Origin: Pararhizobium sp. IMCC3301
GTDB lineage: Bacteria; Pseudomonadota; Alphaproteobacteria; Rhizobiales; GCA-2746425
DNA length: 64,000 nucleotides
Reading direction: 5' to 3'
Assembly (NCBI RefSeq): GCF_030758315.1
Contig: NZ_CP132336.1
Location: 4,493,001-4,557,000 of the forward strand
Part shown: positions 2,081 to 52,827 of the stretch, piece by piece
Position numbering within the stretch: the first letter of the stretch is position 1
How the letters are laid out: each line of letters begins with the position of its first letter
Program-made: the position numbers and the translations under genes
The notes under the pieces: model-generated
What the model was told of the DNA's origin: nothing
Databases searched by the model: none
The model's input: only the letters and a program-made list of their open reading frames with translations

Positions 2081-5000
2081 GTGCGCAGACACCATCAAAG
2101 GGCGGATACCGGATGGCGGGATTGTTCGTGTCCCGCCCGCTTTTGGGTATCGTCATTAATTTGCTGATTTTGATCGCCGGTTTGGCAGCCCTCACATCGG
2201 TAGACGTGCGTGAGATGCCCGATGTGGACCAGCCGGTCCTGTCGGTTCGTACCACTTATGAAGGTGCGGTTCCTCAAACAGTCGACCAAGAAGTGACACA
2301 GGTTCTTGAGGACGCCTTGAGCGCTCTCGATGGCCTCTCCTATATCGAATCGAGTTCCAGCACCGGTTCGAGCCAGATAACCATTGATCTTTCTGAAGGC
2401 ACTGACGTCGATATCGCTGCCAATGAGGCACGTGAGATTGTATCTGCAACCCTGCGTCAGCTCCCTGACGATATCGACGATCCAACAGTGTCGAAAAGCG
2501 ACAGCAACGCTGATGCCATTATTCGTCTGGCCGTGCTGGGGGACGCGACCCTAGACGAACTGAGCGTTCTGGCTGAAGGGATGATATATGATCGGCTCTC
2601 GGTCATTGACGGGATTGCCGAAGTGACCACCCGTGGTAACCGGACCAATGAATTCCGTGTCACCTTGGATATTCCTTCACTGCTTAGCCGTGGGTTGACC
2701 GTCTCGGATGTCACCAATGCGTTGGCTTCTTTGCGCGACGACACCCCCTTAGGTGAGTTAGAAACCAATTCACAGACTCTCGCGCTACGTGTCGGCAATG
2801 CAGATGTGACCGTTGATAGCGTTGGTCAGGTCTCAATCAATTCCACAACCCACGTGTCCGACGTGGCCTTTGTGCAGCTCGTCCCTGAGGACAACGAGGT
2901 CTTGTCTCGCGTCAACGGTCAGTTGGCCATTGGCCTAGATATTAGTCGCCAATCGGCCGGAAACACCCTTGAAATATCTAAAGCGGTGAACGCCGCAGTT
3001 GAAGAACTGCGTCAAGTTTTGCCCGAAGGTGTAGAGATTGTCATCACCTCCGATGATGGTGTGTTTATCGAATCTTCTATAGACGAAGTGGTCAAATCTA
3101 TCGGTTTGGCGGCAGTCATTGTGATCGCAGTGATCTTCGGTTTTCTGCGCTCACCCACTGCGACGTTAATCCCAGCTATAACGATTCCCGTCGCTCTAGT
3201 GGGAACAGTTGCCGCGATCTGGTTAACTGGATTTTCCATCAACACCATAAGCCTTCTTGCGCTGGTTCTCGCCACAGGCATGGTTGTGGATGACGCAATC
3301 GTGGTCATTGAGAATATTGTGCGAAAGCGCAGAGAAGGTATGGGGGCTTTCGCCGCTGCTGCTGCTGGCACCAACGAAGTGTTCTTCGCTGTGATATCAA
3401 CCACAGCAACGCTAGCAGCCGTTTTTATTCCGATTTCGTTTTTGCCCGGTCAGGCCGGCGGCGTCTTTAGCGAGTTCGGATTTGTTTTGGCTTTTGCCGT
3501 GACTCTGTCTTCCATCACCGCGTTGACATTGGCGCCGGTCATGGCTGCGTTTCTAGACCCAGGTCGCGCCGGTTCAGAAAAGCCAGTTGCCGAACCGGGG
3601 AGGCTGTCTCGCGCTTTTGATTTCGTTATGGATCACGCTATCCGCTCACCGCTGATCGTGATTGCCACTGCAATCGGCTTTGCCATTATTGCAATAGGAG
3701 GGGCCACGACGCTTTCTTCTAGCATTACGCCGACCGAAGATCGGGGGTTTTTCCTTGTTCAGGCGCGTGGTGCATCTGACACCACAACCACTTATCTCGA
3801 TGGTCAGGTCGCAATGATCGAAGAGATTTTAACCCCATATCGTGAAAGCGGCGAAGTGACCGCTGTGCAGAGCATCATTGGTATTGGTGGGGGCACCAGC
3901 GCCTTCATCATTGTGCGCCTGCAAGATTGGGTCGAACGCGACCGTAGTCAGGCAGAGATTATCTCTGAACTCAGTGGTAAGTTGACGAGTGTGCCTGGCG
4001 TGCAAGCGAGTGCTCGGTCAACCAACAGTCTGAACATCCGTGGCGGAGGACAAGGTTTACAATTCGCAGTCACCGGAAATGACGTTACGGCGATGACTGA
4101 GGCCGCCGATGACTTGGTGGCGGCCATGTCTGGCGATGATAGTTTTCTGAATCCGCAATTATCCAACGACAGCGTACAAGCCCAGTATGAGGTGCGTGTA
4201 GACGAAGACATGGCAGGTGTGTTCGGTCTAACTGAAGCCGAAATTACCCAGACTATAAGTTCAATGGTTCAGGGAAGTGTCGCGGTTACCGTCTTCGAAA
4301 ACGATACCGAAACAGATGTAAACGTCGTGCCGGGTGGTCCGCCGATTGATGATCCTTCCAATCTTGAATCAATCTTTCTACGCCTTCCCGATGGCGCTTA
4401 TATCCCGCTTTCGGCTGCTGCGACGCTAGTTCCGGTGGTCAGTGAATCTCAGATTGAACGTCAGGGTGGGTCGCTGGCGGTGTCGGTGCAGGCCAATCTT
4501 GGTACGGGAGTCGATCTTGGCGATGCCATGGCACGATTGACTGAGCTCGCAGCAGATACACTACCCGAAGGCATGGGCATCACATTTACAGGAGAAGCCG
4601 CATCTCTGACAGACAGCCAATCCAGTATGTACTTGGTATTTGGGGTGGCCTTTGTAGTTGTATTTCTTGTGCTATCGGCCCAGTTCGAAAGCATTGCCAG
4701 CGCCGTCGTTATCATGCTGACGGTCCCTTTCGGCCTTGCTGCTGCTTTGATGGCGATTTTACTTACCGGTGGGTCATTGAACTATTACAGCCAGATCGGC
4801 CTGGTAATGCTGATCGGGGTGATGGCAAAGAACGGTATTTTGATCGTTGAATTTGCCAATCAGCTGCGTGAGGCGGGGCAAGATATCGATAGCGCTATCC
4901 GCGATGCGTTACGCCTGCGTATCAGACCCGTGATGATGACGATGCTATCGACCGTGTTCGGCGGCCTGCCCCTTATTTTGACATCTGGGGCTGGTGCCGA

Positions 5001-11977: not shown

Positions 11978-12511
11978 GTCAATCAATCCCGGGTTCTGAC
12001 TGTCCATAGTAGTCACAAGCGACATCACTATAGAAATCAGATGTGTACAAAGCATGAACACTGTAACTGTTCCTGTCTTGTTCCGCAAGGCGGAAATCCG
12101 AGACATAGAAGGAACATCTGCTCCGGTCGGAAACATTGCATGTAAACAGGACAGGACCTGTCGGCTCCGGATCGCAGCGGCAGGGCCACACCCGATGCGC
12201 CTGTTTGCGGATTACAGGCACCATTGCGTGGTTCTTGCCGGCAGTCAGGGCCATATCCGCATGGCGCACAGCACAGCCATTCATCGCGAACGCAAAATCG
12301 ATGAGTTGCATCCCTGATGCAACGCTCGGTCCTGAGCGCAGTCAGGATTCACACACTGGCGCCAGAACACTTTCACCGGATAGTCAGGTTAACTCGTTAA
12401 CAAAATCTCGTTGAAAGACCAATGCAAAAGAAGCTCCATAAACGTTTTGCGTAATTCTTAATCTTTGTAATTTATTGGGATTTTAATCTCTATTGATTGG
12501 TTGGGGTCGCA
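11978..12511. other. lexA / histidine kinase intergenic region
   Basis: 534 bp of divergent promoter DNA. It holds the lexA SOS box, and a palindromic pair GTTAAC-TC-GTTAAC at 12388-12401 in the AT-rich part before the kinase. From 12400 to 12500 the DNA is strikingly AT-rich compared with its surroundings. No convincing gene was found; the short open frames here lack family resemblance. Confidence 0.5.
12069..12083 (-). promoter_or_regulatory. LexA-binding SOS box upstream of lexA
   Basis: GTTC-CTGTCTT-GTTC on the plus strand (GAAC-N7-GAAC on the lexA strand) is an exact match to the alphaproteobacterial SOS box, a direct repeat of GTTC spaced by 7 bp. It sits 92 bp upstream of the lexA start codon, which fits repression of its own promoter. 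Confidence 0.85.
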
Positions 12512-49830: not shown

Positions 49831-51191
49831 CAAATCCAATTGTTCGTTTCGCGCCATCTCCGACCGGCCGCATTCACATCGGCAACGCCAGAACCGCGCT
49901 TTATAACTGGTTGTTTGCGCGCCAGCATGGCGGCAGTTTTATCCTGCGTTTTGATGACACCGACAAGGCGCGTTCGAAAGAGGAGTTTGCCACCGGTATT
50001 CTGGCAGATATGGCATGGCTGGGGATTGAGCCAGCGCGCGTTGAACGCCAGTCAGCCCGCTTTGCCGACTATCAGCTTGTGACTGAGGAGCTGAAGGCAA
50101 AGGGTCTGCTTTATCCATGTTATGAAAGCGAAGATGAGTTGGAGCGCCGCCGGGCACGGCGCCGCGCGCGCGGACTTCCTCCGATTTATGACCGCTCGGC
50201 GCTTGAACTCAGCGACGGCCAGCGCCAGAAACTAGAAGCGGAAGGAAAACAGCCGCATTGGCGCTTCCTGCTGCCGAATTACAAGGACGATGTATTATCC
50301 ATAGAGCGTACGGAAATTCATTGGGATGATGTGTTCAGGGGCCCGCAAACTGTGGATCTGGGCTCCATGTCGGACCCGGTTCTGGTGCGTGAGGACGGCT
50401 CATGGCTGTATACTTTGCCATCGATCATCGATGATGCCGCCTTTGGCATCAGCCATGTCATCCGTGGCGCTGACCACATTACCAACACCGGCGCGCAAAT
50501 TGCGATTTTCCGGGCTCTGGGATATATCCCGCCGGCCTTCGGCCACCACAATCTGCTGACCGGATCAGAAGGCGAGGGCCTGTCGAAACGGCTGGGCTCT
50601 CTGTCGCTCCAGGGACTTCGGGAAGCCGGATTTGAAGCCATGGCGGTAGCGTCTCTGGCCAGCCTGATAGGCACGTCCGATGCGGTTGAGCCAATCCCGG
50701 ACATGGCCGGCCTGGCGCAGCGGTTTGATCCGCAGAAAGTATCGAAGTCACCAGCCAGATTCAATGTGGCTGAACTGGACGCCCTGAATGCAAAATTGTT
50801 GCATGGCCTGTCCTATGATGCTGTGGCTGACAGATTGACTGTGCCTGACGGAGTTGATGGCGCGCTGTTCTGGGATGCAATCAGTGGCAATCTGGAAAAA
50901 CTGCCGGATGCTGACCGGTGGGCCGAAATTGTCAGATCGGGTGCGAAGCCGCTGATTGATGATGAAGACCGGGATATGGTGTCCAAGGCGGTCGGTTTGC
51001 TGCCGCAGGACCCTTGGTCGCAATCCACGTGGATGGATTGGGCAAATGCAGTAAAATCCGAAACCGGGCGCAAGGGCAGGGCTTTGTTCATGCCCTTGCG
51101 CAAAGCGGTTACTGGATCAGAGTCCGGACCGGAGATGACAAAACTTTTGCCGCTGATTGGCCGTAAAACCGTTCTGGCCCGACTGTCCTGA
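49827..51191 (+). CDS. gltX: Glutamate--tRNA ligase
   Basis: 454 residues from ATG 49827; the open frame further upstream lies within the MFS gene. Class I synthetase with PSPTGRIHIGNARTALYNW (HIGH motif HIGN) and GLSKRLGS (KMSKS motif) near residue 252. The C-terminal anticodon-binding domain is present, so it is a full GluRS rather than GluQ-RS. Many Hyphomicrobiales have two gltX genes, one of which can charge tRNA-Gln with glutamate for the amidotransferase route. The last 83 bp overlap the convergent DUF2865 gene. Confidence 0.93.
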   Translation: MTNPIVRFAPSPTGRIHIGNARTALYNWLFARQHGGSFILRFDDTDKARSKEEFATGILADMAWLGIEPARVERQSARFADYQLVTEELKAKGLLYPCYESEDELERRRARRRARGLPPIYDRSALELSDGQRQKLEAEGKQPHWRFLLPNYKDDVLSIERTEIHWDDVFRGPQTVDLGSMSDPVLVREDGSWLYTLPSIIDDAAFGISHVIRGADHITNTGAQIAIFRALGYIPPAFGHHNLLTGSEGEGLSKRLGSLSLQGLREAGFEAMAVASLASLIGTSDAVEPIPDMAGLAQRFDPQKVSKSPARFNVAELDALNAKLLHGLSYDAVADRLTVPDGVDGALFWDAISGNLEKLPDADRWAEIVRSGAKPLIDDEDRDMVSKAVGLLPQDPWSQSTWMDWANAVKSETGRKGRALFMPLRKAVTGSESGPEMTKLLPLIGRKTVLARLS

Positions 51192-52212
51192 CGCGCTGAC
51201 CATCGCGGATCTGTGGATCGACCACGAGTTCAGCTGGCAACGGTAACGCATTGGGACGGAAATCCCCGGCCAGGTTCATTTGTGTTTCCGGATCCAGACC
51301 GAGTACCGGGCGGCGCAGGGGTACAGGACCGTTCTGTCCGAATTCGACATTGCTCATACGCCGGTTTGAGGATTGTGCGGTGCTTTGTCCGGTGACTTGC
51401 AGAAGGGTCTGTTGCAGGCGGCGGCGGTCGAACTTGCACGATGCGTCATAGGTTTCGCGATAGCGAAAGGCATAGGATTGAGAGCTGTAGGGCTGGCCAC
51501 TCATCGACTGTGCCGTTTCCATGGCATTCTCCACGCCTTCTGGGTGGTAGAATAATTCGACTTGTGTTTCCGGGAATTTCTCCTTGCAAACAGCTTCGTC
51601 CCGGGAAAAATTCTGCGCCGTGGTGGACGTACTGATTGGGAAGAAATAGCCATCGCAAATGCGCACGCAAACGGTCCGGTAGTGGGTCACTCTCGGTGGC
51701 CGGTATTCTTCCACAGGTTCTTCACGCCGGTTGAATAGGTTGCTTCTGTAACCATATCTGGCCGCTGCCCGCTCATATTGTCTGCCGCAATTATTGCGTG
51801 CCAGCGCAATCACCAGATCGCGCTGTTCGCGCCGCGTGCTTCGCGGATTACGGACAAAACGGGAGCGTTTCGATTCCAGACTGCGCAGTTCCCTTTCCAG
51901 TTGCCTGACTTCCCCGCTCAGACCGGAACATTCACGGCTTTGAAATAACAGGATACCGCTGGTCCGGCAGCGCGCCCGACGGGCCTGGTTTTGAGCGCCA
52001 GCGAGGCGTTTGCGCAGTTTCTGCGCGGCGTTGTTGTAACGCTGGTATTCGCGGTTGTTGGTAACAGATCCGCCATTTTGCAGCGATCCCAGTCGGTTTT
52101 CAAGATCATTACAGATTCGCGACTGCGCTTGGGCAGCAACGCTCGTCCCAAGCAAAATGCCGAATGCCAAAAGCACGGCGGAGCGGTAACATTTAAGCGG
52201 GAATCTTGGCAT
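51109..52212 (-). CDS. DUF2865 domain-containing exported protein
   Basis: 367 residues. A signal peptide (VLLAFGILLGTSVAAQAQS) is followed by a long coiled-coil-like Arg/Gln-rich region with paired cysteines, and the DUF2865 core near residues 170-270: YRTVCVRICDGYFFPIS and CKEKFPETQVELFYHPEG. Periplasmic, function unknown, restricted mainly to Hyphomicrobiales. The C-terminal ~27 residues are encoded antisense to the 3' end of gltX. Confidence 0.85.
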   Translation of the reverse strand: MPRFPLKCYRSAVLLAFGILLGTSVAAQAQSRICNDLENRLGSLQNGGSVTNNREYQRYNNAAQKLRKRLAGAQNQARRARCRTSGILLFQSRECSGLSGEVRQLERELRSLESKRSRFVRNPRSTRREQRDLVIALARNNCGRQYERAAARYGYRSNLFNRREEPVEEYRPPRVTHYRTVCVRICDGYFFPISTSTTAQNFSRDEAVCKEKFPETQVELFYHPEGVENAMETAQSMSGQPYSSQSYAFRYRETYDASCKFDRRRLQQTLLQVTGQSTAQSSNRRMSNVEFGQNGPVPLRRPVLGLDPETQMNLAGDFRPNALPLPAELVVDPQIRDGQRVRTVGPERFYGQSAAKVLSSPVRTLIQ

Positions 52213-52313
52213 TTGGCTCCGTCACTCAGATCAAGTTTTCGGTTATCTATCTCAGGTTTACCTTGCTGAACCATAAACCTCATAGAGAGGCAAGCCGGTA
52301 AATGTCCGTCCGA

Positions 52314-52475
52314 TTACATCTTTCCGCAATAGTTGCGCGTTTGCATACATCGATTGATCGACGCCTTCGTCTCATTGCTGAAACCCGATCCGGCAGACCG
52401 GTCAAACTGAGCCACGACCAGAGCGCTGCTCAAGACGATGAGTGTACATGAGAGTATAAACACAAAACGCGCCAT
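52314..52475 (-). CDS. Small membrane/secreted protein, candidate SOS-regulated gene
   Basis: A 53-codon gene starting at ATG 52475 with an SD-like AGGGAAGGGAACC just upstream and TAA at 52314. The protein starts MARFVFILSCTLIVLSSALV, a strong hydrophobic segment (~4-22) that is either a signal peptide or a single TM anchor, followed by a polar domain with C43 and C50 (RCMQTRNYC). A perfect SOS box lies 68 bp upstream on the same promoter side (52543-52557). Small SOS-induced single-TM proteins such as Caulobacter SidA inhibit division, but there is no sequence similarity I can claim. Both the gene call and its regulation rest on this sequence alone. Confidence 0.55.
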   Translation of the reverse strand: MARFVFILSCTLIVLSSALVVAQFDRSAGSGFSNETKASINRCMQTRNYCGKM

Positions 52476-52827
52476 TTGGTTCCCTTCCCTTATTGTTGCT
52501 CCAATTCTGCCGTAAACGGAATGAACCTGGACTGACCCCGTTGTTCAGTTTCGGTTCAGAAAACTCCCGGTTTTCCATTCCCTATTTCAGGCTTGACGCC
52601 TTGCGCGAAACGGCCTTTAGTGCAGCCGGTAAACACGGTGGACAGAGAATGGCGCATCAGCCGATTTGTATTTGCGGAATTATTATCAGGGGTTAACAGC
52701 CCGCTGGTCCGCGAACCGTGTCTTCTTCCCCTATATTGAAGCTGCATCGCGAGGCCGGCGATCATGACAGGCTGGTTTCAGTCTGTCCGGATCAGCAGAT
52801 ATGGTCTGGCGAAGCGGGAAAGCACTT
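52476..52827. other. Divergent promoter region between the small gene and cysS
   Basis: 352 bp. Contains the SOS box at 52543-52557 nearer to the small minus-strand gene (68 bp) than to cysS (270 bp). A third GTTC-like half-site lies 12-30 bp inside it on the minus strand. No gene seen; short frames here have no SD site or similarity. Confidence 0.5.
52543..52557 (-). promoter_or_regulatory. Second LexA-binding SOS box
   Basis: GTTC-AGTTTCG-GTTC on the plus strand is an exact GTTC-N7-GTTC match, in the same orientation relative to the small minus-strand gene as the lexA box is to lexA. Distance to the small gene's start codon is 68 bp, comparable to the 92 bp at lexA. Confidence 0.7.

Follow-up and report, generated by a model that had tools for sequence, protein, structure and literature searches.

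A conserved 53-codon gene divergent from cysS and the 35-bp element that it shares with curlin and exported-protein genes

What controls a tiny, unlisted gene that lies between a DUF2865 gene and cysS with a perfect GTTC-N7-GTTC box in its promoter? In a preliminary description of the 64-kb stretch of DNA analysed here (the window), the gene was proposed to be under SOS control and its product was likened, as a candidate protein that arrests division and with no claim of sequence similarity, to SidA of Caulobacter, a 29-residue inner membrane protein under LexA (PMC4211646). Three questions arise. Is the reading frame a gene? Is the box an SOS box? And if it is not, to what does it belong?

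The peptide gene and its product

The features attributed to the frame (an ATG, a Shine–Dalgarno-like sequence, a hydrophobic N-terminus and two cysteines) are all present.

51109–52212, minus strand: DUF2865 gene, downstream of the peptide gene (PF11064, E 9.9e-23)
52314–52475, minus strand: peptide gene of 53 codons, stop codon included in the coordinates; ATG at 52475, stop ending at 52314
52317–52409, minus strand: predicted mature peptide, codons 23–53, about 31 residues, with C43-x6-C50-G and a possible disulfide
52410–52475, minus strand: signal-peptide-like N-terminus, codons 1–22, predicted cleavage between A and Q of V-x-A-Q
52482–52490, minus strand: Shine–Dalgarno-like AGGGAAGGG; close relatives have an AGGAGGG-type sequence at the same place

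The frame, which is divergent from cysS, is open and intact in five of five genomes of the genus, that of Rhizobiales bacterium IMCC20636 among them, at 46–60% identity to the copy in the window. In the four species pairs whose synonymous sites are not saturated its dN/dS is 0.16–0.18, which indicates purifying selection. The search of relatives upstream of cysS found frame and box conserved together, and in this part, a small unlisted gene for a membrane or secreted protein behind a conserved box, the preliminary description is supported. Since both are kept in five genomes and the frame is under purifying selection, their conservation goes beyond chance; judged from its sequence, the 53-codon frame is a genuine gene.

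What kind of protein does it encode? In all five species the N-terminus has a positive residue, a hydrophobic stretch and then V-x-A followed by Q. The invariant residues are R3-F4-V5-F6, S9-C10, A22-Q23, D25 and C43-M44-x-T46-R47-x-x-C50-G51. The product looks like a tiny exported peptide, with a signal peptide and a mature part of some 31 residues, in whose C-terminal portion cysteines 43 and 50 probably form a disulfide. The 53 residues match nothing in Pfam, NCBIfam, PHROGs or the PDB, and neither 397 genomes of the order nor the genome collection yielded a homologue outside the genus. Weak profile matches outside the genus were judged on inspection to be unrelated frames. In another family a C-x6-CG protein is also encoded divergently from cysS (L299); the resemblance is too short for homology to be claimed.

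The DUF2865 gene follows 101 bp after the peptide gene on the same strand, and the two are possibly co-transcribed. Between them (52213–52313, minus strand) several members of the genus have a TATGGTT...AACCATA-type inverted repeat, which reads AGGTTTA...TAAACCT in the Pararhizobium genome. On the cysS side, positions 52650–52790 form a stretch that is conserved in the genus far above its surroundings, with blocks such as AATTATTATCAGGGGTTAAC and GAAGCTGCATCGCGA; it has no Rfam match and is possibly a leader or promoter region of cysS. No RNA families were found near the peptide locus.

The box as one half of a 35-bp element

Is the box an SOS box? It is perfect, as first described, and lies 67 bp before the peptide ATG, with all eight consensus bases kept in five species. 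Its placement had been equated with that at lexA; the two are similar without being identical, the box of lexA (12069–12083) preceding its ATG by about 91 bp. A lone perfect GAAC-N7-GAAC is weak evidence: the window has six where 1.9 are expected, and the genome has 131, compared with 99 copies of a reversed control pattern.

The spacer is more telling. We built an SOS matrix from the boxes of the genus at lexA (five species), recA (two imperfect boxes per species), imuA, uvrA/ssb and dnaE, and scored each true box with its own gene left out. Most true boxes score between +2.7 and +9.0; the three that fall lower, to between −0.7 and −2.8, all come from lexA and recA in G004, the most distant species. 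The spacer at the peptide gene scores −5.6 to −8.0, against −8.8 for the median random spacer. It reads TGAATCT or CGAAACT, whereas the SOS boxes of the genus are A-rich and start with GAACA. GAAC-N7-GAAC alone does not make an SOS box in these genomes. (As a separate observation, a dnaE-like polymerase gene has upstream of it a closely spaced pair of perfect SOS-type boxes in opposite orientations, at 4230–4274 of L220, G000:C1:144229–144273.)

To what, then, does the box belong? The sequence TGAAC-N6-TGAAC is enriched in the genus, and inspection of its sites revealed a symmetric array of four half-sites, GAAC-N7-GAAC-N5-GTTC-N7-GTTC, of which the box at the peptide gene is one half.

52523–52557, no strand assigned: 35-bp element GAAC-N7-GAAC-N5-GTTC-N7-GTTC, one mismatch; best-scoring place in the window
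52543–52557, plus strand: GTTC-N7-GTTC box, one half of the element; kept as GAACTGAATCTGAAC in four other species
52557–52554, 52546–52543, 52537–52534 and 52526–52523, read on the minus strand: half-sites GAAC, GAAC, degenerate GGTC and GTTC

At the peptide gene the third half-site is degenerate in every species of the genus. The element there has one or two mismatches in four of the five species, three in the fifth (G002), and in those four it is recovered by a scan that allows two. With a matrix trained on 81 distinct sites, the peptide gene left out, its promoter ranks first in the window (29.2; runner-up 5.1); across the five species it scores 28.8–39.7, and the recA and lexA loci fall below zero. 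The predicted exported product starts 45–48 bp downstream of the element, while the csgA genes start 75–88 bp away; this difference, the degenerate half-site and the three mismatches in G002 weigh against a shared operator.

The element is like the SOS box of Alphaproteobacteria in its GAAC-N7-GAAC half-sites, their 11-bp phase and the presence of GTTC-N7-GTTC in a promoter. It is unlike it in spacer, in the opposed second pair that completes the 35 bp, and in its targets, which are exported proteins and not DNA repair genes. In 5 of 38 sites of the genus the four-site architecture is kept with no intact GAAC-N7-GAAC on either side. We conclude that on sequence grounds the SOS hypothesis fails even though frame and box are both conserved, since the spacer does not match and the element is shared with curlin and other exported-protein genes; as half of that element, the box points to an envelope or biofilm regulon and not to control by DNA damage.

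What of the likeness to SidA? A SidA-like protein is an SOS-controlled small inner-membrane protein acting on FtsW/FtsN. Like SidA and DidA, the peptide is very small, has a hydrophobic N-terminal segment and was missed by annotation (PMC4211646). It differs in that it begins like a signal peptide, contains cysteines in its predicted mature part and is encoded behind a non-SOS element, by which description it stands apart from a bare inner-membrane protein of 29 residues. Arrest of division is not supported.

The element across the genus and the order

How widely is the element used? Across the genus, a scan of the five genomes that allows two mismatches finds 45 sites, and three for the reversed control pattern. 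When no more than one mismatch is allowed, the element occurs in 211 of 397 genomes of the order, and the control pattern in about 20. Exact matches were absent from some 380 genomes of other alphaproteobacterial orders; chance alone also predicts about none, so the exact element is merely not enriched there. We found no description of the element in the open-access literature, and we call it undescribed provisionally.

Which genes lie beside it? By a simple signal-peptide heuristic, an exported ORF begins 20–140 bp from 36 of 38 sites in the genus and from 43 of 52 in the order, the latter an uneven sample. At random intergenic-like positions of the same loci the figure is 186 of 1500 (12%). 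Fisher tests give 2e-29 and 6e-29 respectively, values that overstate the association, as there are orthologues among the sites and one region was counted twice.

The targets in the genus are curlin genes with CsgH (PF07012, PF21112), a gene opposite hsp20 for a small exported protein, genes for exported proteins that match META or, weakly, crystallin or inhibitor types, and some for proteins with no known domain. The peptide gene thus shares its element with csgA and csgH (curli described in PMC3521004), although its 53-residue product lacks the curlin repeat; on sequence grounds it would be a co-regulated gene and not a curli subunit. Across the order, several targets are peptides of 43–67 residues called exported by the heuristic, some with a C-terminal C-x4-C. 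In two other families, at or near cysS, an element with two or three mismatches is followed by ORFs of 45 and 43 residues that begin like a signal peptide.

Several arrangements recur among these loci. Curlin genes with csgH are present in several separate copies per genome of the genus, nearly all behind the element (four loci). The element between a divergent hsp20 and the gene for a small exported protein is a conserved arrangement in several families (16 loci). In other families, exported peptides of 60–67 residues with a C-terminal C-x4-C lie behind the element (five loci); their plan is like that of the 53-residue peptide, without clear likeness in sequence. Exported ORFs of 45 residues ending in a G(L)GIV-type ...LQR lie behind it in two genera (three loci) and are apparently an unlisted peptide family. 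Lastly, exported proteins with C-L-x6-C-G and then WC occur at L299 and L318, the first encoded divergently from cysS like the peptide gene, the second behind the element.

A proposed operator and its alternatives

What might bind such an element? Its 11-bp-phased repeats, arranged as two facing pairs, have a geometry that would fit a pair of protein dimers bound to the same face of the DNA. We think it likely that the peptide gene encodes a small exported peptide under a 35-bp operator common to curlin and exported-protein genes, and that a putative regulator switches on this envelope, surface and matrix set. The operator would comprise two opposed direct repeats of GAAC, each with an 11-bp phase. 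The regulator would sit on it, immediately before the core promoter, in a symmetric complex, probably a head-to-head pair of dimers. Once bound, it would switch on the envelope, surface and matrix proteins, the peptide included. In csgA, the gene opposite hsp20 and the peptide gene, the last half-site stands 12–13 bases before a −10-like hexamer. This spacing is an estimate by eye, and a scan for consensus promoters gave no match; activation from this position, in preference to repression, is therefore put forward tentatively. The cleaved peptide would act in the periplasm or the extracellular matrix. From the company kept by its operator, its most likely role is that of a small, possibly disulfide-bonded periplasmic or matrix factor that the cell produces along with curli and other surface proteins.

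Somewhat less firmly, we favour an order-wide and apparently undescribed regulon of the Hyphomicrobiales, in which one regulator acts through the 35-bp operator on curli and on a broad class of exported proteins, many tiny missed peptides among them. CsgD is reported to be absent from Alphaproteobacteria, where curli genes nevertheless occur (PMC3521004), and we found no description of their control there. If the proposal is true, the order-wide regulator would fill the role that CsgD has in enterobacteria. An element common to curlin and many exported-protein genes makes the control of alphaproteobacterial curli directly testable, and it offers a practical handle on tiny secreted peptides that gene callers miss.

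Could the regulator be one already known? An OmpR-family envelope response regulator (CenR, ChvI/BvrR or a relative), the element then being a local variant of an established system, is possible but unlikely. Like TGAAC-N6-TGAAC, the CenR motif TGA-N8-TGA is a direct repeat phased at 11 bp, and it controls envelope genes and exported targets (PMC9275681). The half-sites differ all the same: those listed for CenR are mostly TCAC or TGAC...GTGA and not TGAAC, and no opposed second pair has been described. Published ChvI motifs also differ, and neither these nor the motifs of CenR and HigX match the element. An OmpR/EnvZ-type pair adjoins one copy of the element in one genome of the genus; a keyword motif search of seven loci of other families found no such pair, and we do not take it for the regulator.

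Might LexA have a secondary part? The regulator of the element could be primary and LexA could also bind the intact GAAC-N7-GAAC half, giving a weak SOS input. The 15-mer does retain its eight consensus bases in five species, and the published consensus of Caulobacter is also GTTC-N7-GTTC (PMC12700426). Against this, the spacer is as random for LexA, and the element by itself explains why the half-sites are conserved. We regard such dual control as quite improbable.

The four half-sites invite one further comparison, with a pair of overlapping promoters for an ECF sigma factor of the EcfG (general stress) type. The EcfG consensus has the spacing GAAC-N16-GTT, and in the element every GAAC-to-GTTC pair is 16 bases apart; hsp20 stands opposite one of the target genes in several families. 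In the profile of the element, on the other hand, the base before GAAC is T and not the G of a GGAAC −35, and a sigma factor needs no four-site inverted symmetry. This explanation is very improbable. The first proposal, a true LexA site before a SidA-like inhibitor, has on its side a box kept in five species in the orientation found at lexA and, in SidA and DidA, precedents for such proteins in the class (PMC4211646). Against it stand a near-random spacer and the four-site element of which the box is half, and we hold it to be the most improbable of those considered.
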